Assembly: GCF_000739655.1 (NCBI RefSeq)
Contig: NZ_BATR01000164.1
Span: 124,001 to 188,000, forward strand
Length of the DNA stretch: 64,000 bases
Direction of reading: 5' to 3'
Origin: Verrucomicrobium sp. BvORR106
GTDB lineage: Bacteria > Verrucomicrobiota > Verrucomicrobiia > Verrucomicrobiales > Verrucomicrobiaceae
Shown here: piece by piece, positions 46,643 to 64,000 of the stretch
Layout of the letters: each line of letters starts with the position of its first letter
Position numbering within the stretch: the first letter of the stretch is position 1
The notes under the pieces: model-generated
The model's input: only the letters and a program-made list of their open reading frames with translations
Databases searched by the model: none
What the model was told of the DNA's origin: nothing
Position numbers and translations under genes: made by a program

Positions 46643-47647
46643 ATGCACTTTGAGTTCGTCATGAAACACGAACTTCTCCTCCAGTGCCCTCCCCTTCATC
46701 ACGCAGGCTACGACTTCATTGGCGACATCCACGGCCAGCATGGCAAGCTGCTGCAACTGTTGCACAAGCTGGGCTATGAAGAGCGCAACGGCATCCACCG
46801 CCATCCGGAAGGGAGGATCCCGGTGTTCCTGGGTGATCTGCTGGATCGTGGGCCAGACGTCCGCGGACTGGTCCGCCGGGTCAGGACCATGGTGGAGGCG
46901 GACGCTGCATTCTGTATTCTGGGCAATCACGAATACAACTTCATCCTTCTGCACACTCCTGACCAGCAGGGAGGATGGCTGCGCCCGCGGACGAAAGAGA
47001 ACCTGCGCCAGGGCGAGGCCACTCACCGTGCTTTCGCTGGGTACGAGGAAGAACTGACCGGTCACTTGCACTGGATGAAAGGTCTCCCTCTCGCGTTGGA
47101 TCTGGGAAAGTGCCGGGCCATCCACGCCTGCTGGGATGATGCCCTGTTGGAACGCGTGGCCCATCATACCCTGCGCGATCCCGAATTTCTCCTCGCCTGC
47201 GGAAACCGCACCACGGAGGCGCATACCGCCATGGAGATCCTCGCCAAGGGACCCGAACTGGCCCTGCCTCAGAATCTGGCCTTCCTCGACAAGAAGGGCA
47301 TCGAGCGGCGGAACATGCGCACCCGCTGGTGGAATCTGAAGGGCCTGACCAAGCTGGCGGAGCTCGCCATGCCACCGGGCACCCTGGTGGGCGACATGCC
47401 CGTCCAGGAGGAGGACCTGCGCCTTCTCCCGAATTACCCGGCGGAGGCACCTCCGGTCTTCTTCGGGCATTACTGGATGCCCCCGGCAGGCCCCAAAGCG
47501 CCGCTGGCGCCCAACCTCGCCTGCCTGGACTACGGAGCCGGGCTCGACGGCCCGCTCACCGCGTATCGCTGGAATGGAGAAGCCGCTCTGGACGCTGCCA
47601 ACTTCGTGCAGACCGACTACCCTGCGGAAGAGAGAGCCGCAGCTTGA
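46643..47647 (+). CDS. Metallophosphoesterase (PrpE/ApaH-like)
   Basis: A 334-residue calcineurin-type phosphoesterase with all the metal-site motifs: YDFIGDIHGQ, FLGDLLDRGPD, LGNHEYN, and a late FFGHYWMP. The nearest functional relatives are the serine/threonine phosphatases PrpE and diadenosine tetraphosphatase. The ATG at 46643 or the one at 46661 is the start; the frame reaches back into the LysR gene but that part has no family motif. It ends four bases before the pseudopilin operon's last stop codon, converging with it. Confidence 0.9.
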   Translation: MHFEFVMKHELLLQCPPLHHAGYDFIGDIHGQHGKLLQLLHKLGYEERNGIHRHPEGRIPVFLGDLLDRGPDVRGLVRRVRTMVEADAAFCILGNHEYNFILLHTPDQQGGWLRPRTKENLRQGEATHRAFAGYEEELTGHLHWMKGLPLALDLGKCRAIHACWDDALLERVAHHTLRDPEFLLACGNRTTEAHTAMEILAKGPELALPQNLAFLDKKGIERRNMRTRWWNLKGLTKLAELAMPPGTLVGDMPVQEEDLRLLPNYPAEAPPVFFGHYWMPPAGPKAPLAPNLACLDYGAGLDGPLTAYRWNGEAALDAANFVQTDYPAEERAAA

Positions 47648-47651
47648 GACT

Positions 47652-50351
47652 TCACGGTGTGAGTGGCTGATACTCCAGACGGCGGAACCGGGTTACGCCC
47701 GTGGCGGAGGGATCCGCGTAGCGCTCCAGCATCGTTTGCTGGCGACTCTCGGCCGTGATCACCAGATTGCCGTTGCGCGTCTGTTTCAACGCCTGGCCGA
47801 TGCTGTACACCATGAAGACGCTGCCCCGGGTGGTGACGAGGTTCGCAATACCTCGAACCACCGCTTCGCTCTCCTCACCCCCGTCCGCCACCCCCGCAAT
47901 CTCCACGATCTCCCCGGGTGAGTCGTAGGCATCGGCATAGCCATACTTTTTGCCCTTGGCAGCGAGGGTGCGGTTGTAGATGTTCTTGGCGATCGTACGC
48001 GCCTTGGCGATGCTGATGGTCTCGCTGCTATTGGTGGAAGTGGGGGCCGCCACCCCGGCCAGCAGGGCCACCAGCGGCAAGGAACGCTCCAGAGGCGAAG
48101 AGACCTGCAAGGCATCGCCATACGGCTGGACCTGGGAGTTGATGTTGATGCGACCCGCCGTGCTGGTGGAATGCGGAGCAAACATGCCTTTGGCGCGATC
48201 CGGCACATCCACCGGCACCGTGAACAAATCCATAAAAGCCCAGTCGGGCACCATCGTGGCCGCATCTTCATTGGGCTGAAGGTGGAGCGTGCGCCAGGGC
48301 ACCCCGGCTCCGGCACCGCTCTCCATTCCCGTATGAATGTAGCCCAGCTCACCCACAGAATCGACCTGGCCACTCGCGTTCCCCGTAGAGCCCGCCGGGG
48401 CTGGCATGTAGAGGCTGGTATCGGTGATCACGCCACTGGCATTCGTGTCCTGTTTGGGAGTCGTGGTCGTTGCCTTTCCCAGCGTGCGAATGGCCACTCC
48501 GCCCACTGTGCCATCGTTCTCTTTGCCGAAGCTGTTTCCGTAGTCGCGCTTCTTCCAGTCATTGCGATGCGTGTTCACCCGCGGATCGTCCACCTCGATC
48601 GAGTGGATGTCCTTCTCGGCCACCCCGGTGCCGTCCAGCGTGCAGGAGGCGGCCGTACCCAGTGGGGCCACATCAAGCCTTCGGGTGCGGGAGATCGCAT
48701 ACCGCAGACTCACTGTGGTCGGCCGCGTGCCGGTCAGGGTCGCCGTGGAGGTGCGGGTGATGCTGGCGTAGCCGCCTGCAGTCAGGATCGCATTGCCCCC
48801 CTCAATCTCCGCCGCAGTGATCGCGGTTTCTGTCGGTGAACCACTCAGACCAGTGCCGGAGGCGGAAAGAAAAAGGTTGAGCTTCGTGAGGTCGATCTGG
48901 TCCAGTCCGAAGTTCTTGGGCAGATGAACCTCCAGTTTGTACTTGGCCTGGTAGGTGGTGCCGCTGCTGGCAGAGGCTGCCACCCACAAGCCCATCTCTG
49001 TGATCTTGGGTGAGCGGGTAATGCCAATGAAAGCGATGTCAGAAGTAGCGACCTCCATGAGCTGGAAGCGACCACCCGCTGCCTGCTCGCCACGCAGGGG
49101 CACCACCGCCTTGGTCACACTCTCCCCTACCGACTCCTTGGAGCGGACATAGTTGATGATGTTAAGCGAGAGCTGGGTGAGCCGCTCGGGCTTGTTGGCA
49201 TAGTACTTGGCCTGGAAGTTGGAGTCTGGGGCCACGGGCCAGTCCGTCCGCTTGAGGTAGGAGTTGAGCAGATCGATCGTGTCCGCCAGCTTGGTGGCAT
49301 CCGTGTGGGCAATGGGATCCCAGATCTCCGTCGCCCCATCCTTTTTGATGTCAATGAAGGGTCGGCCCGCCGCCTTGGTCTTGTCGGTGGTGAGGACAAT
49401 CCGTGGTTCGTTGAAAAACGTGGTGTCTGGCTCGTGATTGTAATGGGTGATCTCGAACTTGGCGCGGTTCAACACCGTGGTGAAACTGCCCGCCCCATCG
49501 TCGAGATTCCGCAGTTCCCGGGTGGAGTTGAAGAACCGCTTCACGGTGCTGAAGTCGTAAGGGTCCGGTGCGATCGCCGCGTGCATCCGGTCCACCATGT
49601 CCACGGTCATGCCATAGTTGGTGAGGGACAGGAGATTGATGCTGGCAGGGTGACTGGTGGTGAAGGGGCTCTTCACTCCGGTTCCGCCGCTGGAGCCGTT
49701 GCGCTTCCAGGCCGTGTTGATGTTGATCTTGCTGGACTCAGCGTCGGCCCACCAGGCAAAGCGGCCCACAATGGGGTTCGCGGAATTCGTCAACACAGGT
49801 GACTCAGACTCCTCCAGCGTGCCGTCCTGTCGCACATAGATCCAGCGCAGGGGCAGAGTCGCCACCGGGCTCGTGCTGTCATTGGGGTCCGTCTGCTGGT
49901 CAGTGATGACGTGAGTCACTGGACTCTGGTCATTGAAGGTCTGGACATTGAGGTTGGCCGGGGCCAGCGGATCATCTGCCGCCAAGGCAAGCGCCGCCGA
50001 TCCGGGCAAACCCGAGTGCAACGGCAGCCGGCGGCCCAGGCGGATCAAGGAGGATCCGCTGGCCGTCTCCACCGGCAGGATCAGGGCCCCGGGCTGACTC
50101 GCCCAGACCTTGGTGCCATCCGTGGTATGATTGCGCAGGACACCGGTGACCATGTTCACCCCCATCTGGGAGTACCCCTGAGCTCGGGCCCGGTCCAGAT
50201 GAGCACCGGAAGCGGCGGTCTCGTTTCTCACCATGTCGGCAAACCCCAGCACCATGATGGTGATGAGGGCGAGAATGATGACCGTGATCACCAACGCCAT
50301 GCCGTGACGGGTGCGGCCATACGGATGACGGGGAGGAAAGAGGGTCTTCAT
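47652..50351 (-). CDS. GspK/PilX-like pseudopilin, Verru_Chthon cassette A type
   Basis: An 899-residue protein opening with a prepilin-type hydrophobic helix, HGMALVITVIILALITIMVLG, that lacks the glutamate at +5, exactly the exception that marks GspK and PilX. At about residue 200, FAWWADAESSKININTA matches the GspK segment of the form DE.G.LNIN. Further on it is a long mixed domain. It is far larger than T2SS GspK (about 330 residues). As I recall the family it is the 'Verru_Chthon cassette protein A' model. It overlaps the preceding gene by four bases and is the last gene of the operon. Confidence 0.85.
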   Translation of the reverse strand: MKTLFPPRHPYGRTRHGMALVITVIILALITIMVLGFADMVRNETAASGAHLDRARAQGYSQMGVNMVTGVLRNHTTDGTKVWASQPGALILPVETASGSSLIRLGRRLPLHSGLPGSAALALAADDPLAPANLNVQTFNDQSPVTHVITDQQTDPNDSTSPVATLPLRWIYVRQDGTLEESESPVLTNSANPIVGRFAWWADAESSKININTAWKRNGSSGGTGVKSPFTTSHPASINLLSLTNYGMTVDMVDRMHAAIAPDPYDFSTVKRFFNSTRELRNLDDGAGSFTTVLNRAKFEITHYNHEPDTTFFNEPRIVLTTDKTKAAGRPFIDIKKDGATEIWDPIAHTDATKLADTIDLLNSYLKRTDWPVAPDSNFQAKYYANKPERLTQLSLNIINYVRSKESVGESVTKAVVPLRGEQAAGGRFQLMEVATSDIAFIGITRSPKITEMGLWVAASASSGTTYQAKYKLEVHLPKNFGLDQIDLTKLNLFLSASGTGLSGSPTETAITAAEIEGGNAILTAGGYASITRTSTATLTGTRPTTVSLRYAISRTRRLDVAPLGTAASCTLDGTGVAEKDIHSIEVDDPRVNTHRNDWKKRDYGNSFGKENDGTVGGVAIRTLGKATTTTPKQDTNASGVITDTSLYMPAPAGSTGNASGQVDSVGELGYIHTGMESGAGAGVPWRTLHLQPNEDAATMVPDWAFMDLFTVPVDVPDRAKGMFAPHSTSTAGRININSQVQPYGDALQVSSPLERSLPLVALLAGVAAPTSTNSSETISIAKARTIAKNIYNRTLAAKGKKYGYADAYDSPGEIVEIAGVADGGEESEAVVRGIANLVTTRGSVFMVYSIGQALKQTRNGNLVITAESRQQTMLERYADPSATGVTRFRRLEYQPLTP

Positions 50352-51271
50352 GGTGCGTTCTCCAAGTGAACTTTCAGAGTCTGGGAGGACATGCCCCCTA
50401 TCACCCGGCTCAGGCTGGCGTTCGCCTGGAGAGTCTCCACACAGTCCGCCGCCGTGGCGCTCTGGGCGACAACGGCCTTGATGGTTGACGCCGTGGCGGC
50501 CGTGAGCAGTGAGGCGGATCGTGTATCCAGAACCACCACAGACACCTCCACCGCCGTGGGCAGCACCGGAGCGGCGCGAGTGATGCTGGCAACCGTGCCC
50601 GTGGACTCATGAACCTGATCGACGTATCCCACGCGGGAATCATATCCCCCTGAGCCCACACCCGTCTGGGTGATGGGATTGCCAGAGGCATCCAGACAGC
50701 GCACCCACAGACCAATGACATTCTCCGCAAACAGCCCCCGGTAGGAACTGGCGACGTCTGCCGGGGCGGAAGAGTTCAACACCGCCTCCGTCATCCAGGA
50801 GAGCTGGCTGTACACCAGATGGTCGCTCGCTCCGGGATTCAGAAAGATCCGGCACAGGGAGGCCCGCGGTGTGCTGGATGATTCATCCCAGCGGACGAAG
50901 TAGCCAATCTCAGCCATGTTTCCGTGAACCGTGGAGGTGGCGAGCGGTGCCTGCCAGAACACCGCCTGCGGCTGCCGGTACTGGGCGGGCACACCCGCGG
51001 GATTGACCACAAATTGCAGATCCGGTGTGGCTCCAGTAGAGCGGGAGTCCACAGGAAGCGCCGCCGAGCGCAGATCCCGGCCAATGAAGTCCACCAGCGC
51101 ACGACCGTTCTGGGTGCGCTCAGTGCGGCCGTTGCCCTGTGACCAGGTGTTGCTCACCATGCCGGCCACCTGCACCAGCAGCACGACGATGAGGCTCAGC
51201 ACCGCCGAGGCCACCATCACCTCCACCAGCGTGAAAGCAGACAGGTTATTTCTCTTTTGCGAGGGAGACAT
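50348..51271 (-). CDS. GspJ/PilW-like pseudopilin (cassette member)
   Basis: A 307-residue protein with the N-methylated prepilin start LSAFTLVEVMVASAVLSLIV (phenylalanine at +1, glutamate at +5) and an uncleaved length and acidic linker (SQGNGRTERTQNGRALVDFIGRDLRSA) of the GspJ/PilW kind. I chose the ATG at 51271, 26 bp inside the end of the previous gene. Its stop overlaps the GspK-like start by four bases. Likely one of the four tip pseudopilins. Confidence 0.85.
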   Translation of the reverse strand: MSPSQKRNNLSAFTLVEVMVASAVLSLIVVLLVQVAGMVSNTWSQGNGRTERTQNGRALVDFIGRDLRSAALPVDSRSTGATPDLQFVVNPAGVPAQYRQPQAVFWQAPLATSTVHGNMAEIGYFVRWDESSSTPRASLCRIFLNPGASDHLVYSQLSWMTEAVLNSSAPADVASSYRGLFAENVIGLWVRCLDASGNPITQTGVGSGGYDSRVGYVDQVHESTGTVASITRAAPVLPTAVEVSVVVLDTRSASLLTAATASTIKAVVAQSATAADCVETLQANASLSRVIGGMSSQTLKVHLENAP

Positions 51272-51704
51272 GGATGATCTGCGGGGCACGCCCCGGCTCC
51301 AGGTTGAAGGTCCATTTCAAGGTGGCCAGACAGGCATCTGTTCCCACATCAGGGATGCCCCCCTTCGCCGCAGCCGTTGAGGTGGGCGTCGGTATCTGGC
51401 TGAAGGTCACATGGCAGAGGTAGAGCGCCTGCTCATCCCCTGCAGCCACGGTGCCCGATTCGTTGAAGCGGAACTCGACCGTCTCAGTCAGACTGGAGGG
51501 AAAGGTGCGGGAGCGTAATTCCCCCACCGCGACCGACACCATCCTGGGGAGGAGGGAGTTGAACCCGCTGTCCCGCTCCGTCTTCATCAAGGGCGGCAGC
51601 AATCCCACCACCGCCAGCAGGGAGAAGCCGATGATGGCAATGGCAAGGGCGACCTCCACGAGGCTGAAGCCATTGCGGCGCCCGGTTGTTGGCAGGCATT
51701 TCAT
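51246..51704 (-). CDS. GspI/PilV-like pseudopilin (cassette member)
   Basis: A 152-residue protein with the prepilin start RNGFSLVEVALAIAIIGFSL (F+1, E+5) and the small size and single beta-domain layout of GspI/PilV. It overlaps the GspH-like gene by four bases at its start and the GspJ-like gene by 26 bp at its end. In type II secretion GspI nucleates the tip complex with J and K. Confidence 0.85.
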   Translation of the reverse strand: MKCLPTTGRRNGFSLVEVALAIAIIGFSLLAVVGLLPPLMKTERDSGFNSLLPRMVSVAVGELRSRTFPSSLTETVEFRFNESGTVAAGDEQALYLCHVTFSQIPTPTSTAAAKGGIPDVGTDACLATLKWTFNLEPGRAPQIIHVSLAKEK

Positions 51705-52381
51705 GGCCGTTCCACCTTGGTTTTGCCGGTGGTGCCCAGGAGCACGACACGATAGTAGTTTGAAGGAACCCCTCTTTCCGCCTGGCTGAACTGCACCTTG
51801 CCGCCAGACACAGTGCCCTCCACCAAGCGGAACTGGGCCGCATCATCCGGATTCAGCAGCCCACCACCGGGCAAAAAGATCCGGGCGGCATAGGTGCCCG
51901 CCGGTAGACTGGAGTTGGACCCGTACGCCACGGGCGCGCCCGGGCGGCTGGCATCCGCAAAAGGAAACGGCTGGGGTCCATTGGAGAAGAAGGAGGCATC
52001 CGTCCCCGTGGCCCCCACGTCCACAACAATGCCGTCTGGCAATACCTCCCACTCACGGATCTGACGCCAGCCCCCGGCCACGGTGTACTCCAGCACGGTA
52101 AAGGCCCGGGCATCGACCTCGGTGCCAAGAGACTTCATCAGAACCACGGCGTTCAGCGTGTTTTTGGTGATCGCCTGCTGTCGGGCCGCCTCGATAAGCC
52201 GGGTCACCTTGTTTCCGGCATTGGTCAGCGTCATGGAGCGCAACGCCCTGCCTACGCCAAGCCCTCCCATGGCCAGAATGGAGGCCATGACAGCCATCAC
52301 CATGAGCATCTCCACAAGGGTAAACCCCACGTGATGCCTTGAACCGCTGTTGTGACCGTGGATCCTGTTCCCAATATTCAT
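51701..52381 (-). CDS. GspH/FimT-like pseudopilin (cassette member)
   Basis: A 226-residue protein with HHVGFTLVEMLMVMAVMASIL (F+1, E+5) followed by GLGVGRALRSMTLTNAGNKVTRLIEAARQQAITKN, the alpha-helical stalk typical of GspH/FimT. The ATG at 52381 overlaps the stop of the upstream giant repeat-protein gene by four bases, so translation is probably coupled to that gene. Longer frames upstream lie inside the giant gene and are spurious. Confidence 0.88.
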   Translation of the reverse strand: MNIGNRIHGHNSGSRHHVGFTLVEMLMVMAVMASILAMGGLGVGRALRSMTLTNAGNKVTRLIEAARQQAITKNTLNAVVLMKSLGTEVDARAFTVLEYTVAGGWRQIREWEVLPDGIVVDVGATGTDASFFSNGPQPFPFADASRPGAPVAYGSNSSLPAGTYAARIFLPGGGLLNPDDAAQFRLVEGTVSGGKVQFSQAERGVPSNYYRVVLLGTTGKTKVERP

Positions 52382-55300
52382 GACTTCATGCCTCCTCGCT
52401 GAGAAGATGTCCGGCGACGCCGGCTGGTTGTGCAGGCCAGGGCCAGCAGAATGAGCACAGCCCGGGAGGGCTCGGGCACCACGTAGATGATGCCGTCCGT
52501 GAGAAAGAGATCCGTGTTGAAATACCAGCCATTGCCCAGATCCGCCACAGACGACAGGTCGAGATAGTCTGAGACGTTGCCCGTGTTGCTGTCCAGCGTC
52601 GTCCAATCCACGAGGTTGAAGACATCGCCCCATTGCACAGCGTATCCGGAGGCCAGTTCCACCTTGATCACGCCTGTCTGCTCCAGATTCAGCGTGCCAC
52701 TGACCACGATGCTGTCATAGAGCCCGCCTGAAGCTGCTGTCGAGTAGCTCGCTGCGCTCCCTCCCGAAAGGTTGCTCTGGGTGCCGCCCAACTGCAACAC
52801 CACGCGGGTGGCCCCGGCACTGAGCGTCAGATCGCCATTCACCGTGAGTGTCCCAATGCCCGCTCCCGCATTGGCCACGACATCCGTGCCCACCGTGGCG
52901 CCGGGCCGGATGACGCTTGTGCCGCTGATGATAAGACTGCCGGTGACACTCCCAGTGCCACTCAGCGTCTTGTTGGTCAGCGTGTAGTTGCCAGAGGTGC
53001 GGCCACTGACGCTGAAGACAGCACCGCTGTCGATCTGGATCCAGGGAGTGCCGTCGATGTTGCCCGTGCCCGAAAGCGCGAGGGTGCCCCCGCTGATGGT
53101 GGTCTTGCCCGTGTAGGTGCTGGTGGTCGCGGTGGGCGTTGTGGTGTTGTAAGTATTGGCCAGGGTGAGGGTGCCGCTTCCCGTCTTCACCAGTGCCAGA
53201 TTCCCGGTGATGCGGCCATAGTAGATCTGCGCCGTGCTCTGATTGATCGTGAGCATGGAGAGGGTGGCACTGTTGGAGTTCGTCACCGCCACCACGTCAC
53301 TGGCCCCGGCCGGGACCACACTGGCCAGTCCGGCAATGGTCTGGTTGTACCCGGCCAGATCGAATGCGGTGGTCTCCGTGACCGAGTTCGCGGAATAAAC
53401 CGTCAGCACCGTGGTGGAAGGCAGGCTGTTCGTCGCCCCCAGCTTCAGCGTGCCGCGAATGATCGAGGTCGATCCCGTGTAGGTGTTCGCGCCGCTGACC
53501 ACCACCGTGCCTCCCGCCCCGCTGGAGGAGAAGGCCACCGAGTTGGCCGCACCATCTCTGATGACGCCACTGAGGGTGAGAGTCCCGTAATTGTTCACGC
53601 CGATCCGGGAGTTCGCCGTGCCAATCAAGATGTCTCCCGCCCAGGTTGCCGCAGCCGTGGCGGCGGCACTGGCGCCACCGGTCAGGTTCAGCGCCCCGTA
53701 GTTGCTGCCATTGCCGTTGATGGTGAGCGTCTCCCCTTGGACGACAATGCCATCACTCAATCGAAGGATGGCCCCGTCCGCCACCGTGGTGCCGCCATCG
53801 GCAGATCCGAGGGCCAGATTGTTCGCCACCACCAGGATCCCCTGGCTCACCGTCGTCTCACCCGTGTAGGTATTGGCTCCGCTCAGAGTCAGTATGCCGG
53901 TGCTGGAGGTGCCGCCTGTTTTCTTCAAATCACCCTCGCCAGAAATGATGCCTCCGTAGGTGAGAGTGGCCACTCCCGTACTCAACGTCCCTCCACCCGC
54001 AAGGAGCGTGATGCCTCGATTGCTGTTGAGCACCGTGTTCACAGCAATCTGGAGTGTCCCGCCGTTGAAAGTGAGATTCGCAGCCTGCACTGCGATAGGC
54101 GCCAGCCCCAGACTGCCATCGCCGGAAATGAGCACGGTGCCGGCATTGAACGTCGTCCCACCGCTATAGGTGTTGTTTGTATTAGCCAGCACCAGGGTGC
54201 CGCTCCCGTTCTTGACGAGATTCACCACGCCAGTGCCGTTGTTGGTGATGGCCACATTCACCGTGATGGCATTGGTGGAGGAGTAGTTGTAGAAAATGAG
54301 GGTGCCCGCGGCATTGTCCGCCGAGCCTCCCGCCGTGAGGCTTCCCCCATTGTGGGCGGTCGTGCCGATGGTGAGCGCCCCCGCCCCATCCACCAGCATG
54401 ATGCCTCCCACCTGACCCAGCCTCAAGGTCCCCTGCTGGGCGTCGGAGTTGTCATTGATGTCGACGATGGTGGCGGTGGTGGCCGCAGATACGAGCGTGT
54501 TGATGTCCGTCATTCCCGTGGCATCGGCCAGGACCACGCTGCCGCTGGTGCCGCCGTCCACGATCTTGATGTTGGCAGAGGCGCTGTCTGGAATGGGCCC
54601 CACTGCCCCCGCTCCGGAGCTGTAGGAGGTCACAGTGGTGTACCCGGTGTAGGCCACGATGTTTCCTGAACCATTCACCGCCGCCCAGTCCGTGCCGTTC
54701 ACCGTGGCCCATGCGCCCAGGATGCCGGTGGCATCATTCACGCTGCTGGTGGTGATGCCATTGGTGCTGCTTGCCTCCCCCGCCGGGAGGACAAAGTTGA
54801 CGGTGCCGCCACTGTAAGTGATCGCGCCCAGGGAGAGCAGCAAATCCTGGGGAGTGGTGCTGCTCTTGGTCAGGCTGATGGTCGAACCGCCAACTGACAG
54901 GGTGAGCCCGTTGAACCGCTGGCTATTGGCCGCGGTGGTGCCCCCCGCCAGGCTCAGCGTGCCGCCCTTCATGATCAGCGAGGAGCTGTTCGCAGTGTTG
55001 TTGATGATGTTGCTGACGGTGGAGGAAAAATTCAGAGCCAGCGTACCGGCGGCGACCGTCGTGCTGCCAGTATAGGTACTGGCCCCGGTCAGTGTCTGCG
55101 TCGCGGTCCCAGTCTTGATGAGAGACAACTTGCCGCCCGCGTCTCCGTCTCTCAGAACGCCGCTGAAGGTGTAGCTGCTGCGTGCCTCGAGGGTCAGCGA
55201 GGCTGCCGTGATGCTGTTGTTTTCCACATAGTTGTTCGTGGAGCCCGTATTCCCCAGCGTCAATCCCGCCACGGCCACGCTGTTGCCGTTCAGTTGAAGG

Positions 55301-56355
55301 ACCTTCGTGCTGGAGGAAGCCGTCGTGGGACCGAAGGTCACCAGATTGGGGTTTGCGGTATTCAATGCTCCGGCGCTCCCCAGCTTGAGCGTGCCTATAG
55401 TGAGGATCACTCCACCGGTGAAGGTGTTGTTGCCACTGAGCACCAGCGTCCCGGCCACCCCGCTGCTGTTGATGGTAAGCGACCGGCTCCCGCCTGATTC
55501 GCCAATGTTGCCGGAGATGGTCCCGGTAATGTTGGTGGCGTTGATAGAGATGGCCGCACTGGAACGCAGGGTCAGGCTGCCAGCCAGCGTGCCGGACGCA
55601 TCAAAGCGAATGGCACCACGGGTGCCGGTGCCAACGCCGATCTCCATAGGCACCGTGATGGTGCCCGTGTCAGACACCGCCAGCGTGACGCGGTCTCCCA
55701 CGACGATCTTGCTCAGACTGTTGAGTGCCGTTGCATACGCCTGCACAAAGAGACCGTCTGTGGTGTTGTTCACCTGATCCAGCAGCGTCAGGGTACCGGT
55801 CCAGGTGTTGGCCCCATAGAGTTGAATGGTCGCCAGCGTCTGGGTAGTGTCCGTACTGACGGTCTTGGCAATCGTGATGTTGTTCCCGGACAACACCGAG
55901 TTGAAGAGCAGACGCTTGTTCCCATCCGCCGAGGTGGCCCCATTGCCAATGGAAATCCACGCACCATCTGCCAGCGCAATGGTGCCGCCGGTAAAGGCAT
56001 AGGCGGCCGTGTTTGTACCGGGATTAAAAAGCAATCCCCCCACCTGAACGGTACCCGAGACCGTCACCGTCTTGGATGCGCTGGTTGGGCCGGTGGTGCC
56101 GTTGCCGAACACGGCAATCACGGAAGAACCAGCAGCCCCGGAGGGCCAGGTGGTGTTGCTGGAGCTGGTGGTGTCCAGCCAGTTCGCCCCTCCCGCTGAC
56201 CATGTGCCACTCCCATCCTGCACGCCTGCCGTGGAGGTGCCCACATCCCAGGTCAGGCTGGACGCCCCCTCGACCACAGGCGCAGCCAGCAGCAGCATCG
56301 ACAAATATTTCATATAACCCGCATGCAAAAAACGGGCAATGGTCAGTGTGGTCAT
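52378..56355 (-). CDS. Giant autotransporter-repeat protein with PEP-CTERM tail
   Basis: About 1325 residues. A signal peptide (MKYLSMLLLAAPVVEGASS, start at 56355 or 56313) leads into a long beta-helical region made of autotransporter-associated beta-strand repeats. These repeats (TIGR02601 type) read like KTGSGTLTLANTYNT or LTLSGANTYTGETTVSQGIL. The C-terminus is a PEP-CTERM sorting signal: VVPEPSRA, a hydrophobic stretch, then an arginine cluster (SRRRRTS). Such signals are processed by an exosortase, which is not in this window. There is no autotransporter beta-barrel. The next gene's start overlaps its stop, tying it to the pseudopilins. Confidence 0.9.
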   Translation of the reverse strand: MTTLTIARFLHAGYMKYLSMLLLAAPVVEGASSLTWDVGTSTAGVQDGSGTWSAGGANWLDTTSSSNTTWPSGAAGSSVIAVFGNGTTGPTSASKTVTVSGTVQVGGLLFNPGTNTAAYAFTGGTIALADGAWISIGNGATSADGNKRLLFNSVLSGNNITIAKTVSTDTTQTLATIQLYGANTWTGTLTLLDQVNNTTDGLFVQAYATALNSLSKIVVGDRVTLAVSDTGTITVPMEIGVGTGTRGAIRFDASGTLAGSLTLRSSAAISINATNITGTISGNIGESGGSRSLTINSSGVAGTLVLSGNNTFTGGVILTIGTLKLGSAGALNTANPNLVTFGPTTASSSTKVLQLNGNSVAVAGLTLGNTGSTNNYVENNSITAASLTLEARSSYTFSGVLRDGDAGGKLSLIKTGTATQTLTGASTYTGSTTVAAGTLALNFSSTVSNIINNTANSSSLIMKGGTLSLAGGTTAANSQRFNGLTLSVGGSTISLTKSSTTPQDLLLSLGAITYSGGTVNFVLPAGEASSTNGITTSSVNDATGILGAWATVNGTDWAAVNGSGNIVAYTGYTTVTSYSSGAGAVGPIPDSASANIKIVDGGTSGSVVLADATGMTDINTLVSAATTATIVDINDNSDAQQGTLRLGQVGGIMLVDGAGALTIGTTAHNGGSLTAGGSADNAAGTLIFYNYSSTNAITVNVAITNNGTGVVNLVKNGSGTLVLANTNNTYSGGTTFNAGTVLISGDGSLGLAPIAVQAANLTFNGGTLQIAVNTVLNSNRGITLLAGGGTLSTGVATLTYGGIISGEGDLKKTGGTSSTGILTLSGANTYTGETTVSQGILVVANNLALGSADGGTTVADGAILRLSDGIVVQGETLTINGNGSNYGALNLTGGASAAATAAATWAGDILIGTANSRIGVNNYGTLTLSGVIRDGAANSVAFSSSGAGGTVVVSGANTYTGSTSIIRGTLKLGATNSLPSTTVLTVYSANSVTETTAFDLAGYNQTIAGLASVVPAGASDVVAVTNSNSATLSMLTINQSTAQIYYGRITGNLALVKTGSGTLTLANTYNTTTPTATTSTYTGKTTISGGTLALSGTGNIDGTPWIQIDSGAVFSVSGRTSGNYTLTNKTLSGTGSVTGSLIISGTSVIRPGATVGTDVVANAGAGIGTLTVNGDLTLSAGATRVVLQLGGTQSNLSGGSAASYSTAASGGLYDSIVVSGTLNLEQTGVIKVELASGYAVQWGDVFNLVDWTTLDSNTGNVSDYLDLSSVADLGNGWYFNTDLFLTDGIIYVVPEPSRAVLILLALACTTSRRRRTSSQRGGMKS

Positions 56356-56461
56356 GGCTGTGCGTTTGGGTTCAGGGGTTCCAGCCGCGCTATCCCATCT
56401 AAACCGCGATGCGGCGTCCTGGTTGCGCGTCAAGACTTAGTAAGTTCAAATTACCGCCAGA

Positions 56462-56920
56462 TTAGCAGGCATAGAGATCAGCGAGGCTTTCCATGAACTC
56501 ATCCAGCTCTTCGCCAGGATCCAGCACCAGGGACTCAATGCTGCTACGGGTAAGAGCAACACCCGTACTGGAGATCAACGAATGGAGCTGGCAGGGATCC
56601 ACCATTCGGACACGCTCCTCTTCCTGATCATAGACATAGATATCCCCCCCGGACAGGGTGGCCAGGGTCCAGAAACCCAGCACCGCCACACGACTGCCTG
56701 GATCGTGCAGGACATTGGCCTCAAGAAAGGCCTCACCTCCCAGGATCATCATCTCCCCCAGATCAAGACTGGCGGAAGGAATGACTCGCTCCACATAGTC
56801 CCGCAACTGACCACTTAGCTGCCGCCCCAGGCCATCCAGCCGCTTCACTAGAAGGGGATCTCCGAGGGCCACCTCGGAGAAACCCATCCGCCGGATCAGA
56901 CGCCGCAGGGATCGTTTCAT
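56462..56920 (-). CDS. Unknown small protein between two giant repeat-protein genes
   Basis: A 152-residue soluble protein with a basic N-terminus (MKRSLRRLIRRMGF) and an acidic C-terminal third. A core segment, GFWTLATLSGGDIYVYDQEEERVRMVD, faintly recalls the SMI1/KNR4 (SUKH) fold, in which a glycine-rich turn precedes a D-x-Y-V-F strand; this is only a resemblance. It overlaps the giant gene upstream by four bases. It may be a chaperone or accessory for its neighbours. It has no signal peptide. Confidence 0.65.
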   Translation of the reverse strand: MKRSLRRLIRRMGFSEVALGDPLLVKRLDGLGRQLSGQLRDYVERVIPSASLDLGEMMILGGEAFLEANVLHDPGSRVAVLGFWTLATLSGGDIYVYDQEEERVRMVDPCQLHSLISSTGVALTRSSIESLVLDPGEELDEFMESLADLYAC

Positions 56921-59900
56921 GGTTGTTTCCCGTATTTCAGGCCCGTGGGACCGGACCGCTTCCTTCTGCGCACCACCATCACTCCCAGGGCAAGAAGGAC
57001 GAGTCCCGCCCTGGAGGGCTCGGGCACCGCCGACAGAGTGATGACGCCCGTGGTGTAGAGATTGCTGTAGTCCCAGGACAAGCCGGTCCCTGAGAGAGCG
57101 GAATCGAGTTCCGTGGTCACGAAGGTGCCGGTCCGCGAGGTGAGCCCCGTCCAGTCGATAAGCTGCCAGGTGTCCCCTATCGCCCAGGTGGTCATGTTGT
57201 TCGTCTCGACCTGGAGAGACACGTTCGATCCAATCACCAATGTGCCGGAGACGACCAGAACATCCGACTCCCCGCCCCCGGTGCCCGCGCCATTCACCAG
57301 ATCCAGCGTGATCACACTGCCCGTCTGGAAGGTCAACGTTCCGGAGCCACTTGCCAGCGTCAACGTGCTGGCCACAGCAGAGCTGAGCGACTCATCCCCT
57401 ACCGCGAGAGTCCCGCCAATCGTCATGCCAGCAACGCTCGTCACCGTGCCACTGCCCTCCAACCGCGCGCCCGCAGCCAAGGTCAACGAGTTCACGGTCG
57501 TGGTACCGCCAAAGTAAGTCGTACCCGCATTCAGCAGCACACTGCCGGAGAAGGACTGAGTGCCAGATACCGCCAGCCGGCCGGATCCGGTCTTCTTGAG
57601 CCCATTACCCGTGACGGTGCCCAGCAGGTTCAGCACCCCAGCGGCATTGGCCACATTCACCGTCGCCTGGGAGTTGGCCAGGACCAGGTTCGTGTTCAGA
57701 GTCACGGCCCCGGTGCTGGTCACCGACACCGCACTGGCACCGTTTACAGTCAGCTTGTTGTCCAGGTCGTTCAGAGCTGCGGCAGTGGTGTTATTGAACT
57801 CCAGACTGCCCACCGCCATATCCGCCCCCAGCCGCATGTCGGTCTGGTTGGTCGCACCGGTGGCGGAGAAGATCACCTTGGTGTTCGCACCCGCCACCTG
57901 CCCCGTCGCGCCCGTGCCAGCGCTGTCAGTGGTCCAGTTGCTGGTCGAATTGCCATTGGAAATGGCCCAGACATTCGCCCCACCGCTGTAGCCACCCTTC
58001 CAGTAGGCCTCGGTGAGCGCGGCGGCCGTGGCCACATTGAGCCAGACCTCCGTGCTGCTCGATCCCACACCGGTCACGGTGTAGCCAGACATGTTGTAGT
58101 AGTTCCCCAGCGCATAGCTGGCCCCACTGAGCCCGCTCGTGGCCGAGATCACCGTGTACTGCCCGGCCGTGTACGTCGCGCCCGCAACGCCAAACACATC
58201 CAGCGTCACGGAGCCGGTGGTGCTGGCCGCTCCCTGGACGATGATGCGGTTCCCCAGCTCCACACCAACAGTGGATCCGCTCTCCAGAGTCAGAGTCGCG
58301 CCGGACTTCAACGTGAGATTGTTTCCAATAACTCCCGAGGTGTACCGAAAGGATGCTCCGGATTTGACCGTGAGCGAGGCGGTCCCCTGAAGGGCCGTGT
58401 TGCTGCGGGCCCAGAGCGTTCCTGCACTGGCCACCGTCGCCCCGGTGTAGCTGTTGGTTCCAGCCAGGTAGAGAGTTCCAGTGCCGGTCTTGGTCAGAGC
58501 GGTGGCCCCGCCATTGATCTGGGCCACGTTTTTGAGCGTGCCCGCCAGCAGGTTCACCGCATCAATGTTGTTGGTCGCATCGCCAATGTTGTGCCCGGTC
58601 ATGTCCAGGGTGCCAACAATGAGGTTGATAGTGGAGGTCGCCGTACCGCCGCCGTCTTTGATGTCCACATTGGTCACCAACTTGCCACCGGTGATGTTCA
58701 GAGTGCCGCTGGCAGTTCCTGATCCGGACTGGGAGGCCAGGGTAAATGTTCCTCCCGAATTCACGGTGAAGACACCGTTGCTGATGTTCAGCGTGGCCGT
58801 CGCCGCCCCCGTTCCCGCATTGGTCTTGGCCGCCATCACCACGGAGTTCGCGGTGAACGTACCGCCGTCAAAGTACACCGTGCCCGTAGCACCGCCGGCA
58901 TCCGTGCCATCTCGCTTGCCAATGGTCAAGACACCTGCGGTGACCGTGGCCGTCATGCCCCGCAGATCGAGGATGCCGGTCGGGGTGCTGGCGGTGCCCG
59001 TGCCCGCGGTGCTGCCCACGGTGATGGTGGTGGTGCTGCCCGTCTTCCCGCCAATGGTGACGCGACCACCGCTGGCGGAAGCGACCACGGTGCCCAATGC
59101 CTTCGACACGCCGATGTTGAGCGTGTCCGTCTTCAGGATGTTGGTTCCTGTGCCGAAGTAGAGGGTGCTCACCGTCCCCGCATTGGACCCCGCACTGCTG
59201 CCCACATGGGTGGTGGTGGCCGTGATGGAGTTGTAGGTGTTGGACAGCGTCAACGTGCCGGTTGTGAGTGACCCGTAGCCCAGCCGCAGCTCGTTCACAT
59301 TCGCCACAAACGATCCCAGCGCCGCGAGGTTGAGCGCGGCCGCATGGGTGGAGCCGGAGTTGATCGTGGCATAGGCAATGCCCAGCTCCAGATTGGCGCT
59401 GGTGTTGCTGACCACCAAGGCCCCACCACCGGAGAAGGTGGCATTGGTCGTCATGGCTGCATTGGACGCGCCCGTGCCGAGGTCCAGCCCCGTGGTGCCG
59501 GTGATGGAGAGCTTTTGCCCTTTGCCAATCACGACCTCATTGGCCGTGGCGGTGTTGCTGGTGAAGACGAGGCTGTCCACTGTCTGGCTGTAGCTGTTGA
59601 GCTCCAGGCGGCCCACCGTGGTGCCCGATCCAATCGTCACCGCCCCGGTGGTGGGAAGGGCATTTGTGGTGCCGATGATCAGCGTTCCCTGGTTGATGGC
59701 AGTGGTGCCTGTGTAGGTGCTTTTGCCTGAAAGCGTCTGCGTCCCCGTTCCAGTCTTCACCAGTGAGAGGACGGATCCCGACGTTCCATTTTTCAACACC
59801 CCGCTGAAGACGGCGCTGGCCTCATTGCCGGAGCCCACCGTCAGCGTGGCCGCAGCGCTGTTGCTGATCACCACCCCGGAGCCGTTGAGGCCGTCAATCG

Positions 59901-62900
59901 TTTCATTGAACCCGTAGAGATCCAGCGTTCCTCCGCTGTTCACGATAACGTCGGAGGTGTTGACAATTTGCTCCGAGGCGGAGAGCTGCACCAGGGCCGT
60001 GGAGCCCGAAGCATCCCCCACTTCCAAGTTGCCCGACACCGCTGCCAGACCCGCCGTCTTGGCCAGGTACACCGTGCCGCCATACACCTTGAGCGTACCG
60101 GTGAAGTCATTGGCCAGGTTCCCGGAGAGGGTCAGCGTGCCGCTTCCGGTCTTGGTGAAGGCGTTGCCCCGCACTCGCGTCAGGTAGAGCTGACCGCCAG
60201 AGGCCACACTCACAACGGCCGCCGCGTTGTTGAAGATCACACTCGTATCGAGAGTGACCTGCCCAGCCCCAGAATTGACAGTGATGGCGGCCGCCCGGTT
60301 CAGCGTCAGGGAATCATTCAGATCCTGGAGCCACACCGCATCACTGGTGTTGAAGGTCAGCGAGCCGACCTTCATGCTGAACCCGAGCGTCATGGGTGCC
60401 GCCTGCTGCACCGCGCCAGTGGCCGAGAAGATGAGCTGCGTGTCCGCCCCAGGGGTCAGCGAGGTGTCGGTGCCCGCGGCATCCGAGGCCCAGTTGCTCT
60501 TGGTGCTGCCATCCGTGATGGCCCAGACCGCTCCATCGGAGGCGCTGAAGCCACCCTTCCAATACGCCACGGAAAGCTCGGCTGCCGCCGTCACATCCAG
60601 GTAGACCGCCGTACTGGTGACGCCAAGACTGTTGATCTTGAAGTTGGTGATGTTGTAGAGCTTGCCCAGCGTGTAAGTCGCATTGTTCAAGCCGCTGGCC
60701 GCCGTGATCACGTTGTACTGCTGCGTCAGGTAGGTGAAGCCCGACACGCCGTTCACGTCCAGGGTGATCGAACCGGTCGTCGTCGCCGCCCCTGTGGAGG
60801 CGATCGCGCTACCCAACTCAACCCCCAGCTTGCTTCCGGTGGCGAGACTCAAAGTTCCGACCGTGAGGGTGTTGCCCGTCGCCCCCGTCTGATACTGGAA
60901 GGTGGCGCCATTCGCCACACTCAGTGACGAGGTACTGCCCAGCGCGTTCTTGTTGGTTGCCCGCAGGATGCCCGCATTCACCGCGGTGGAACCGGTGTAG
61001 CTGTTTACGCCGGAAAGCGTCCATGTCCCGGAGCCGGACTTCACCACATTCACTGAGGCTCCACCAGTGCCATTGATGATGGAACCGCTGATGATGCCCT
61101 CGCTGGCACCGAAGAGCTGTAGATACCTGCCGGTGCCCGTAGTGGCACCGCCGGAGATCTGCCCGGTGATGGTGAGTGTGCCGGACTCTGAAGCGAGGTT
61201 GTAGTAGCTGCCACCCGTGGTGAACGTGATGGTGCCCGCCCAGACGTTGTTGCCGCTGTAGTTGCTGATAGCAGCCGCGGCAATCCCATCACTCTGCCGG
61301 GCCTCCAGGGTGACGTTCTCATTCACCACAATGTCGCCGGCCAGTTCCAGCCGAGAGAGCTGTCCCGTGTTGCCGGAGATCGTGGTCGTGCCCGTGGTGC
61401 TGCCCAGCGCCGCACCGTTGGTGATACGCAGGATACTGTTCACGCCGCCGCTCACCACCGTGGCCCCGGTGTAGGTGTTGCTTCCTGACAGGATGACCAG
61501 GCCGTCGGTGGACTTGGTCAGGCCAGCGGTGCCAGCCAGCACCACGCTGACCGTGCCGCTCTGCATGAGATAGGTGGAGGTGCTGGTGATGGAGGAGCCA
61601 GTGCCAACGATCTGCCCCCCACCCGCAACGGTCACCTGCCCCACCGTGTCTGAATATCCATTCAGATCCCAGACAGCCGTGGAGCCATTCACGGTGACCG
61701 CCCCGGTATTGATGACGTTGCTTGCACCGTAAAGAAGTGTTCCCTGCAGGATGCTGGTAAGACCGGTGTAGGTGTTCGCCCCGCTCAATGTCAGCGTACC
61801 TGCCCCAGTCTTGGTCAATGCAGTGATCATCGTCCCGGTGGTGGTGCCATTGGAGATCACACCGCTGAAGGTGGAACTCTCTCCCCCTGATCCCACGGTC
61901 AGAGTCCCAGTGCCCACCGCATTGCTGGTGACCGAGCCTGCGCCAGCGAGAGCCCCGATGGCTTCGTTGTGCCCATTGAGGTCCAGCTTGCTTCCGGTGT
62001 AGATGGTGACATCCACGCCATCTGCAATCTGCTGATCCGCATTCAGCACGACCGAGGCATAGAGCCCCGTTGCGGAAAGCGTGGATTCGCCAATGAACAA
62101 CTCCGATCCCGACACCGCTGTGACTCCAGCGGTTTTGCCCAAGATCAAAGTCCCTTGCTCGATCTTGGTGGTGCCGACAAATGTGTTCGCCGTGGTGCCG
62201 GAAAGCGTCAGAGTGCCCGCGCCGCGTTTGGTGAACGCGTTGCCGCTCAACTCGCCGGAGATGGTCAAGGTGCCGAGCCCCAGCTGGGTGCCGTCCGTCA
62301 TCCCCACTGTCAGAAGCGGGAGTGCTGACTCCAGCACGACATCGTTATTGAGCGTGAGGCCACCGGTGAGATAGCTCACATAGATCGTGGGCGTGGAGGT
62401 GCTGGAGTCCCCACCCGTCAGCGTCAGGGAATAGAGCGAGTCATTCACCACCACGGCACTGGTCCCTGCGCTGCCACTGGCCTGCCCGTCCACTGACAAC
62501 GTCCGGATGCGCATGTCATAGCCCAGCGTGGTGTTTTGCATGTAGGTGGTGTTGGCCCCATTGGCCGCAAAGATGACGTCCGTGGTCTCTCCTGGCACGA
62601 TGCCATAAACATACTGTCCCCCACGGTCGAAGGACCAGTTGCTCTGCCCGCCGGTAAGCAGACCGTTCGATACCGCCCACACTGTCTCTTCACCCGTCAT
62701 GCCCCCCACCCAATACATGGCCGTGAGGTTCTCCGCCCCCACGCTCATGAAGGTGCCCGTGATGGAGGTGCTGGTGGTCGTTACCGAGGTGAGCAGCGCA
62801 TTGGAGAGACCGTAAAACTTGAGATCATAGGTCGCATTGGTGATGCCACCTGAGCTGGAGGTGAGGAAGGTGTAAGTGCCATCCGGCGACAAACCCACCT

Positions 62901-64000
62901 TCGCAAACACATTCAGGCGAACCAACCCGGAAGCGGTGAGCGCACTGGTCGCCAGAGTGTCACCGATCCCCACGCCGATCTTGCTTCCGGACACGAGAGT
63001 GAGGCTGGCAGCCGTGTTCAGCGTGGCTCCCGTGGTGCCGGGAGTGATGAAATAGAGCCCGGCTCCCGAGGCCACGCTGATGGCGGGACTGGCGCCGAGA
63101 CCGGCCGCATTGGTGACCACCAGAGTGCCCTCACTAACCTCCACGGTCGAGCCGCTGAGCGTGTTGGTCCCGGTGATGAAAGTCCTCCCGGAGCCAGACT
63201 TCTTCACCTTGCCCGAGCCCTCGATCAGATTGGCCACGGTGTAGTCGTCACTCCGGTTGAAAGTGAGGGTCCCCGAGGCACCGACCGTCACCTTCCCGCC
63301 GCCCAATGTCCCCGTCGTACCGCCAGTCCCCACCTGAAGCACCCCGGCAGAAATCAATGTGGCCGCCGTGAACGTGTTGGAGCCATCCAGAATGAGCGTG
63401 CCCGTGCCTGACTTCGTCCAGGTTCCCACGGTGAGCGCGCCGTTGTAGATCTCCAGCACGTTTTTCAAGGTGCCGCTCTGGGCGGTGAAAGTGTCCACAT
63501 TGATGTAGCCCGCGGTCAGGTCAAGCGTTCCACCATTGAGGACCAGCGTACTGATGTTATTTCCTGTTGCGCCTTCCGTCAGATTGCCTCCCACCGTGAG
63601 GGAGCCGCCGGTGATGTTGAGAGTTGCGTCCGCATAGCCGGAGCCCGGTGTGGCGGAGGTGTGGGTCCCCAGCACGACATCACCGGTAACAGTCGCCGCC
63701 CCACCGGAGAGATTGAAGACCCCTTTGCTGTTGGGGTTGCGGGTGTAGATGCCGCTGGTGCTGGTGTTGTTGGCGCTGCTGTCCTGGTTCTCAGCGATCA
63801 CAATCGTCCCCGCCAACAACGTCCCCCCCTGCATGTTGAGCGTGGCATGGGTGGCCGTCGCATTGGTCCCGGCAGTGTTGGAAGTTGCGGAAGTGGAGCT
63901 AATGTCCATGGTCCTCCCGAGCACCACGTTGGTCGCATCGATCGTTCCCGAATTGAACGTCATCGTCCCCAGGCCATAGCCAACCCCGTTGCCGTTATCG
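56917..64000 (-). CDS. Giant autotransporter-repeat protein with PEP-CTERM tail, N-terminus outside window
   Basis: At least 2360 residues; the frame stays open to the window edge, so the start and signal peptide are missing. It is made almost entirely of autotransporter-associated beta-strand repeats (KTGSGTLTLSG..ANTYTG type) that should fold as one long beta-helix. Three long segments repeat internally, each with Y-W-K/V-G-G, VWA-I/V and SNW landmarks, at about 62.7, 60.6 and 58.0 kb. It ends with AVPEPSRAGLVLLALGVMVVRRRKRS, a PEP-CTERM signal that shares PEPSRA with its smaller neighbour. It is the first gene seen of the pseudopilin operon and is likely a surface or extracellular-matrix protein. 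Confidence 0.88.
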   Translation of the reverse strand, partial: DNGNGVGYGLGTMTFNSGTIDATNVVLGRTMDISSTSATSNTAGTNATATHATLNMQGGTLLAGTIVIAENQDSSANNTSTSGIYTRNPNSKGVFNLSGGAATVTGDVVLGTHTSATPGSGYADATLNITGGSLTVGGNLTEGATGNNISTLVLNGGTLDLTAGYINVDTFTAQSGTLKNVLEIYNGALTVGTWTKSGTGTLILDGSNTFTAATLISAGVLQVGTGGTTGTLGGGKVTVGASGTLTFNRSDDYTVANLIEGSGKVKKSGSGRTFITGTNTLSGSTVEVSEGTLVVTNAAGLGASPAISVASGAGLYFITPGTTGATLNTAASLTLVSGSKIGVGIGDTLATSALTASGLVRLNVFAKVGLSPDGTYTFLTSSSGGITNATYDLKFYGLSNALLTSVTTTSTSITGTFMSVGAENLTAMYWVGGMTGEETVWAVSNGLLTGGQSNWSFDRGGQYVYGIVPGETTDVIFAANGANTTYMQNTTLGYDMRIRTLSVDGQASGSAGTSAVVVNDSLYSLTLTGGDSSTSTPTIYVSYLTGGLTLNNDVVLESALPLLTVGMTDGTQLGLGTLTISGELSGNAFTKRGAGTLTLSGTTANTFVGTTKIEQGTLILGKTAGVTAVSGSELFIGESTLSATGLYASVVLNADQQIADGVDVTIYTGSKLDLNGHNEAIGALAGAGSVTSNAVGTGTLTVGSGGESSTFSGVISNGTTTGTMITALTKTGAGTLTLSGANTYTGLTSILQGTLLYGASNVINTGAVTVNGSTAVWDLNGYSDTVGQVTVAGGGQIVGTGSSITSTSTYLMQSGTVSVVLAGTAGLTKSTDGLVILSGSNTYTGATVVSGGVNSILRITNGAALGSTTGTTTISGNTGQLSRLELAGDIVVNENVTLEARQSDGIAAAAISNYSGNNVWAGTITFTTGGSYYNLASESGTLTITGQISGGATTGTGRYLQLFGASEGIISGSIINGTGGASVNVVKSGSGTWTLSGVNSYTGSTAVNAGILRATNKNALGSTSSLSVANGATFQYQTGATGNTLTVGTLSLATGSKLGVELGSAIASTGAATTTGSITLDVNGVSGFTYLTQQYNVITAASGLNNATYTLGKLYNITNFKINSLGVTSTAVYLDVTAAAELSVAYWKGGFSASDGAVWAITDGSTKSNWASDAAGTDTSLTPGADTQLIFSATGAVQQAAPMTLGFSMKVGSLTFNTSDAVWLQDLNDSLTLNRAAAITVNSGAGQVTLDTSVIFNNAAAVVSVASGGQLYLTRVRGNAFTKTGSGTLTLSGNLANDFTGTLKVYGGTVYLAKTAGLAAVSGNLEVGDASGSTALVQLSASEQIVNTSDVIVNSGGTLDLYGFNETIDGLNGSGVVISNSAAATLTVGSGNEASAVFSGVLKNGTSGSVLSLVKTGTGTQTLSGKSTYTGTTAINQGTLIIGTTNALPTTGAVTIGSGTTVGRLELNSYSQTVDSLVFTSNTATANEVVIGKGQKLSITGTTGLDLGTGASNAAMTTNATFSGGGALVVSNTSANLELGIAYATINSGSTHAAALNLAALGSFVANVNELRLGYGSLTTGTLTLSNTYNSITATTTHVGSSAGSNAGTVSTLYFGTGTNILKTDTLNIGVSKALGTVVASASGGRVTIGGKTGSTTTITVGSTAGTGTASTPTGILDLRGMTATVTAGVLTIGKRDGTDAGGATGTVYFDGGTFTANSVVMAAKTNAGTGAATATLNISNGVFTVNSGGTFTLASQSGSGTASGTLNITGGKLVTNVDIKDGGGTATSTINLIVGTLDMTGHNIGDATNNIDAVNLLAGTLKNVAQINGGATALTKTGTGTLYLAGTNSYTGATVASAGTLWARSNTALQGTASLTVKSGASFRYTSGVIGNNLTLKSGATLTLESGSTVGVELGNRIIVQGAASTTGSVTLDVFGVAGATYTAGQYTVISATSGLSGASYALGNYYNMSGYTVTGVGSSSTEVWLNVATAAALTEAYWKGGYSGGANVWAISNGNSTSNWTTDSAGTGATGQVAGANTKVIFSATGATNQTDMRLGADMAVGSLEFNNTTAAALNDLDNKLTVNGASAVSVTSTGAVTLNTNLVLANSQATVNVANAAGVLNLLGTVTGNGLKKTGSGRLAVSGTQSFSGSVLLNAGTTYFGGTTTVNSLTLAAGARLEGSGTVTSVAGMTIGGTLAVGDESLSSAVASTLTLASGSGTLTFQTGSVITLDLVNGAGTGGGESDVLVVSGTLVIGSNVSLQVETNNMTTWAIGDTWQLIDWTGLTSRTGTFVTTELDSALSGTGLSWDYSNLYTTGVITLSAVPEPSRAGLVLLALGVMVVRRRKRSGPTGLKYGKQP

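Follow-up and report, generated by a model that had tools for sequence, protein, structure and literature searches.

The minor pseudopilins at the tip of the type II secretion system (T2SS) are held to recognize and bind its substrates (PMC6211770), and T2SS cargo choice is poorly known. Exchangeable tips are already known for pili in Myxococcus. The M. xanthus genome contains three clusters, each consisting of four minor pilins and one large PilY1 protein, all of which operate on one type IVa pilus (T4aP) machine (PMC7541494), and the Kil (Tad) pilus of the same organism can fit one filament with four exchangeable tips, encoded by paralogous gene sets whose products have enlarged extra domains (PMC12075869). 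On the side of the cargo, MYXO-CTERM and GlyGly-CTERM are three-part C-terminal tags (motif, membrane helix, and basic residues) on T2SS-exported surface proteins, according to the accessible portions of two accounts, which report no dedicated tip set (PMC11980579, PMC3237569). The PEP-CTERM tag was first met in Verrucomicrobium spinosum, in a description that left open how the outer membrane is crossed (PMC1569441). We found no description of exchangeable T2SS tips in the literature searched.

Gene content of the locus

The window, a stretch of 64,000 nucleotides from the 8.69 Mb draft genome of the soil bacterium Verrucomicrobium sp. BvORR106 (C46:124001-188000), encodes on its minus strand, in order of transcription, a giant repeat protein (giant1), a 152-aa protein, a second giant (giant2), and four pseudopilin-like proteins, D1, B1, C1, and A1 (Table 1). 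The overlaps that a first-pass annotation of this DNA had listed on this single strand (56917-56920, 52378-52381, 51701-51704, 51246-51271, and 50348-50351) are all correct in the sequence. The seven genes that it had grouped as an operon are all present in the window, but they are only part of an 11-gene array running past the window end. Just beyond that end lies a second full cassette, B2-C2-D2-A2, with successive spacings of 3, 42, 33, and 69 bp from B2 down to giant1, such that A2 is 69 bp upstream of giant1. The full array accordingly reads tip set 2, giant1, 152-aa gene, giant2, and tip set 1, with the giants flanked by two tip sets. Because a gap of 148 bp separates the 152-aa gene from the probable giant2 start, one continuous transcript should not be assumed. 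A promoter scan of 47400-57100 gave a site count no higher than in shuffles, and Rfam and tRNA scans of the window returned no matches.

Table 1. Genes of the array that lie in the window, in order of transcription (a slash marks the prepilin cleavage site)
Feature	Position	Strand	Description
giant1	56917..64000	-	PATR-repeat, PEP-CTERM protein; 2673 aa in total; extends 938 bp beyond window end; Sec signal MKLRPLIHRLLCPVVTACLLSCGVSTLRAQ
152-aa gene	56462..56920	-	Protein of no assigned function
giant2	52378..56313	-	PATR-repeat, PEP-CTERM protein; probable start ATG at 56313 (MKYLSMLLLAAPVVEGASS)
D1	51701..52381	-	GspH-like minor pseudopilin, Verru_Chthon D (TIGR02596), 226 aa, VG/FTLVE
B1	51246..51704	-	GspI-like minor pseudopilin, Verru_Chthon B (TIGR02598), 152 aa, NG/FSLVE
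C1	50348..51271	-	GspJ-like minor pseudopilin, Verru_Chthon C (TIGR02599), 307 aa, SA/FTLVE
A1	47652..50351	-	GspK-like tip protein, Verru_Chthon A (TIGR02600), 899 aa, RHG/MALVI

Both giants contain PATR repeats (TIGR02601; E 4e-51 for giant1 and 4e-26 for giant2) and end in PEP-CTERM tails, which score 20.1 and 21.0 bits, respectively, against a TIGR02595 cut-off of 16. The ortholog of giant1 in G125, the complete 8.22 Mb genome of a congener (genus group G000/G115/G125), is 96% identical. The 152-aa gene overlaps giant1 by 4 bp and is 82-86% conserved in three strains; it is known at this one locus in three Verrucomicrobium genomes and is not a general part of the cassette. Its product matches no family above cut-off, the other cassettes have no paralog of it, and a fold model from its single sequence was of unusable quality. 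Elsewhere in the genome, very large PATR frames occur on contigs C43 (7778 aa), C96 (5106 aa), C86 (4251 aa), and C197 (at least two in tandem), several of them with PEP-CTERM; no cassette was recognized in the stretches examined beside the giants of C96, C86, and C197.

The four downstream genes are adjacent, run in H-I-J-K order, and all possess class III prepilin signals, in agreement with the initial reading of the sequence. NCBIfam models identify the cassette as Verru_Chthon. A1 scores 576 bits on TIGR02600, above the cut-off of 332.3, whereas D1, B1, and C1 fall below the cut-offs of their own models (56.1/70 bits for TIGR02596, 43.8/51.4 for TIGR02598, and 60.8/256.5 for TIGR02599), each of which is still the top-scoring family for its protein. 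These three therefore represent a divergent subtype rather than strict members of each Verru_Chthon model. The name itself is an NCBIfam one without described function, and we found no use of it in the literature searched.

The K-like protein had been said to lack the glutamate at +5, and it does: A1 has Ile at this position, and none of the 67 located cleavage sites in the A family has Glu there. D1, B1, and C1 have Glu at +5, and because the motif used to search for B, C, and D signals required this residue, the +5 Glu counts for these families are not independent. The gene order resembles that of T2SS minor pseudopilins, as the first-pass annotation had proposed, but the resemblance in size that it also claimed fails for K. 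A1, at 899 aa, compares with 315 and 374 aa for the GspK proteins of the same genome, and A-family proteins generally measure ~900-1700 aa, with one of 2074 aa.

Profile comparison indicates that A is homologous to GspK in its N-terminal ~60-70 residues, the first helix, and only there (59 columns aligned, hhalign probability 92, E 5e-7). The GspK model NF037980 covers residues 16-89 only of A1, at 25.2 bits against a cut-off of 130; the GspK proteins of the same genome likewise stay under 130 bits (56-77), yet their matches extend over their length. Against GspK, the remaining ~830 residues of A scored no better than shuffled columns. A likeness of motifs noticed by eye between the C-terminal third of A and GspK was dropped after it failed against column shuffles. 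A structure model of A1 (pLDDT 57, pTM 0.46) predicts, at low confidence, that residues 14-76 form a long first helix and that a beta-sandwich lies around 442-601. Structure-search matches rest mostly on this beta-sandwich, the best being a GH2 beta-mannosidase (Z 8.0), with archaellins and FlaF also among them and GspK absent; as a common beta-sandwich in a low-confidence model underlies them, we take these matches as no information on function. A sequence search of solved structures with A gave no match.

The observation that the locus has no ATPase, secretin, or exosortase extends to the whole contig, on which we found no GspE-type ATPase, secretin, or exosortase. Two complete T2SSs are encoded on other contigs, one on C73 (E, F, G, H, I, J, K, further genes, and D) and one on C200 (E; K, L, M, D, F, G, H, I, and J; L and M named by position), and cassette 1 is not inside a gsp operon with G, E, and D. 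Since both systems have complete tips of their own, with their own G, H, I, J, and K, the cassettes are extra tips and not substitutes for missing ones. Exosortases above the TIGR02602 cut-off are encoded on C159 and C113.

Linkage and co-inheritance of cassettes and partners

The window's genome contains 20-25 A genes (40 partial matches), and G125 contains 27. We compared their positions in G125 with a null of 1000 rotations of the positions of its 63 PEP-CTERM genes. A same-strand PEP-CTERM gene lies within 3 kb of 16 of the 27 A genes (rotations: mean 1.40, maximum 6) and within 300 bp of 10 (mean 0.85, maximum 4). This linkage is due to PEP-CTERM frames of at least 800 aa (14 vs 0.94 expected, maximum 5); small PEP-CTERM proteins are not clearly enriched beside A (2 vs 0.43). 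Fourteen random 20-kb control stretches contained one PEP-CTERM gene, no PATR, and no pilin. The gene linkage is real and above chance, in a family known by name only.

Counted by cassette, a PEP-CTERM or PATR neighbor within 3 kb is found at 16 of 22 in the window's genome, 18 of 26 in G125, 11 of 18 in other family members, 4 of 5 in G078, and 4 of 14 in distant named relatives. The outcome that the first-pass annotation had named as counting against its interpretation, that most pseudopilins would stand with no repeat protein beside them, was not seen in the family (16/22, 18/26, and 11/18). Cassettes without a PEP-CTERM or PATR neighbor make up 30-40%, and ~60% of large PEP-CTERM genes lie more than 6 kb from any A gene. 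In the window's genome, A showed no co-variation with the C-terminal 160 residues of the partner (r 0.12, p 0.17). The congener (r 0.53, p 0.003) and a mixed set did give positive co-variation, but as these sets include recently duplicated or orthologous pairs, we do not use it as support. At three loci of G125 (L122, L123, and L125), A genes without recognized B, C, and D each lie divergently beside a PATR PEP-CTERM giant of ~1540-1600 aa, an A-giant pairing that seems to have multiplied in G125.

When the window's genome is compared with G125, most orthologous cassettes have retained partners that are themselves orthologous, with six pairs at 88-97% identity and three at 50-55%, and the G125 cassettes that have no close counterpart in the window's genome mostly have a giant of their own. 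A third genome, that of Verrucomicrobium sp. BvORR034, encodes an A protein 94% identical to that of the window and has lost the block B2-C2-D2-A2-giant1. The loss of some 14.6 kb begins within B2 and extends to the final codons of giant1, leaving a scar in which the 5' end of B2 is joined to the 3' end of giant1 (L097 6437-7975 vs window 52378-71676, numbering continued past 64000). Since the two truncated ends can still be read, the block must have been present before it was lost. A diverged copy of the five-gene block is found on C21 of the congener G115 (A2 77%, C2 72%, B2 65%, D2 60%, and giant1 52%); G115 and BvORR034 are not necessarily separate strains.

Cassette 1 is the exception. 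Giant2 is absent in G125 and reduced in BvORR034 to a 292-aa remnant without the signal-peptide region; an open reading frame there, considered as a small PEP-CTERM gene replacing giant2, was rejected as being this remnant. Despite the remnant, and with giant1 gone from the locus, D1, B1, C1, and A1 are intact in BvORR034 and under purifying selection (dN/dS 0.05-0.17). The retention of cassette 1 without giant2 weakens one tip, one cargo as a rule, and cassette 2 with giant1 is the clean example. The pairing of both giants with the window cassette, as originally suggested, does not hold: giant1 belongs with cassette 2, and giant2 is dispensable to cassette 1, as BvORR034 and G125 attest.

Partners also include enzymes. 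At an end of C200 in the window's own genome, a cassette stands next to the gene of a PATR protein with a GH5 cellulase at its C terminus (L067 5679-10958), and GH38, GH42, GH2-like, and SASA-type enzymes are encoded next to distant A loci. In a published verrucomicrobial genome, a pseudopilin over-expressed on alginate has 67 homologues (PMC13274419). Together, the enzyme partners and the alginate pseudopilin homologues fit with tips for exported proteins in general. In the L067 giant, the GH5 domain occupies the place of the PEP-CTERM tail; its G125 counterpart, likewise a PATR giant next to a cassette, is L119 1772-7012.

Of 59 genomes of the family, 54 encode an A protein that exceeds the TIGR02600 cut-off; in a sample of 115 genomes from the phylum, such proteins were confined to this family and one other. 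Weak N-terminal matches to A, in many copies and in frames of ~1000-1400 aa, occur in six further genomes. GspG is above cut-off in 9 of 9 genomes with many A copies, vs 73 of 115 overall (P 0.014, not corrected for kinship). In genomes of ~3 Mb from another family of the same order, two divergent A-like genes of ~1000-1340 aa stand head to head and share the same C-terminal tail (L189 4807-11985 and L191 4867-12033), possibly as an exchange or inversion system.

Proposed accessory tips and alternative readings

With a probability of about one half, we propose that the cassettes encode exchangeable accessory tips for a pseudopilus, that these are paired genetically with exported proteins, and that a shared T2SS (or T4P) uses them. 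The observations beneath this proposal are gene content, prepilin signals, genetic linkage, co-inheritance, and the presence of two T2SSs and two exosortases in the genome. D-B-C-A would form an accessory minor-pseudopilin tip, comprising H, I, J, and an enlarged K. This tip lacks its own machine and would sit on the pseudopilus of a shared system elsewhere, most likely by plugging into one of the two complete T2SSs. A tip set and a single exported partner would usually be inherited together as a unit, the partner being in most cases a giant beta-repeat PEP-CTERM protein and in some an enzyme. The partner would cross the inner membrane via Sec, and an exosortase would process its PEP-CTERM tail. 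The enlarged K-like tip protein may then contact the folded periplasmic partner, and the pseudopilus would move or display it through the outer-membrane secretin, making export of the partner dependent on the tip. At this locus, giant1 would go with cassette 2, and cassette 1 would sit with a giant2 that is dispensable to it.

A cargo-dedicated tip working on a machine elsewhere was the central suggestion of the first-pass annotation, and it survives in part. The accessory set without a machine, the two T2SSs elsewhere, the PEP-CTERM enrichment, the conserved pairs, and the loss of one block, which also occurs as a diverged copy in a congener, speak for it; the 30-40% of cassettes that have no PEP-CTERM or PATR neighbor, the glycoside hydrolase partners, and the lack of A-partner co-variation in the window's genome speak against strict dedication. 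Two further points weigh against the proposal: the T2SSs, with complete tips already, would not require extra sets for assembling a pseudopilus, and the homology of A to GspK is limited to its first ~70 residues, with no GspK match for its low-confidence model. We regard as tentative, and short of an even chance, the more specific form in which one housekeeping T2SS takes some two dozen exchangeable tips, with every tip dedicated to a partner inherited along with it, and provides the outer-membrane route of PEP-CTERM proteins.

The main rival puts T4P in the place of the T2SS. The cassettes would then be FimU/PilV/PilW/PilX-type minor-pilin tips, and the giant a tip adhesin on the pilus, like Myxococcus PilY1. 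Such an arrangement has a precedent in the M. xanthus clusters, in which four minor pilins and PilY1 work on one pilus machine (PMC7541494), and the BvORR106 genome contains further GspE/PilB-like and PilT-like ATPases and secretins. PilX_N also matches 2 of 12 A proteins, and the B and C profiles show no preference for T2SS over T4P pilins (PilV matches B weakly, at 12.6/52.2 bits). The A profile, however, prefers GspK, scoring 24.6 bits on that of the C200 system and 10 on the other, and the D profile scores highest on T2SS GspH (39.6 and 27.8 bits on the two GspH proteins of the genome), with a T4P-locus pilin second. A GH5 cellulase and neighboring glycoside hydrolases are partners typical of secretion, and the giants combine their own Sec signal with a PEP-CTERM membrane tail and gave no PilY1 match in family-model searches. 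We consider the pilus reading unlikely, if the strongest of the competitors.

A tip set and giant that are merely co-expressed, without contact, would leave the giant to exit by other means and would reduce the linkage to co-regulation in variable surface loci. That cassette 1 is under selection without an intact adjacent giant, that many giants have no cassette nearby, and that A-partner co-variation is not seen in the window's genome would all be expected of such loci, but adjacency at about ten-fold over chance, on the same strand and often at 300 bp or less or overlapping, together with partners conserved between species and one block lost as a whole, makes this account rather improbable. 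We give very little credence to the idea that PEP-CTERM giants cross the outer membrane by themselves, like autotransporters, and independently of the pseudopilins. PATR repeats are named after autotransporter passengers, but the C terminus of both giants is a PEP-CTERM tail, Pfam models detect no C-terminal autotransporter barrel in either, and the linkage to the cassettes would go unexplained.

If the cassettes do encode accessory pseudopilus tips, a repertoire of dedicated tips would supply the missing outer-membrane route for PEP-CTERM proteins. The many natural tip-partner pairs in one genome render both this route and T2SS cargo choice testable.

Comparison with described systems

The closest named entity, Verru_Chthon of NCBIfam, has the same four genes, of which A is far above its cut-off here and B, C, and D are below theirs. 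Among systems with a described function, the T2SS tip GspH-GspI-GspJ-GspK (XcpU-V-W-X) shares the gene order, the prepilin signals, and a +5 Glu in three proteins and not in the K-like one; the sets described here differ in lying outside a gsp operon, in their many copies, in a K-like protein of ~900-1700 aa, and in a homology to GspK confined to the first helix. MYXO-CTERM with myxosortase and GlyGly-CTERM with rhombosortase differ from the PEP-CTERM system of this genome in both tag and protease. Minor pilin/PilY1 clusters 1-3 of M. xanthus are alike in that several four-pilin sets each stand beside a large surface protein, but they belong to a type IVa pilus, and the partner here combines PATR repeats with a PEP-CTERM tail and does not match PilY1. 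The Kil pilus differs in being of the Tad type with three-part tips, compared with about two dozen sets here.
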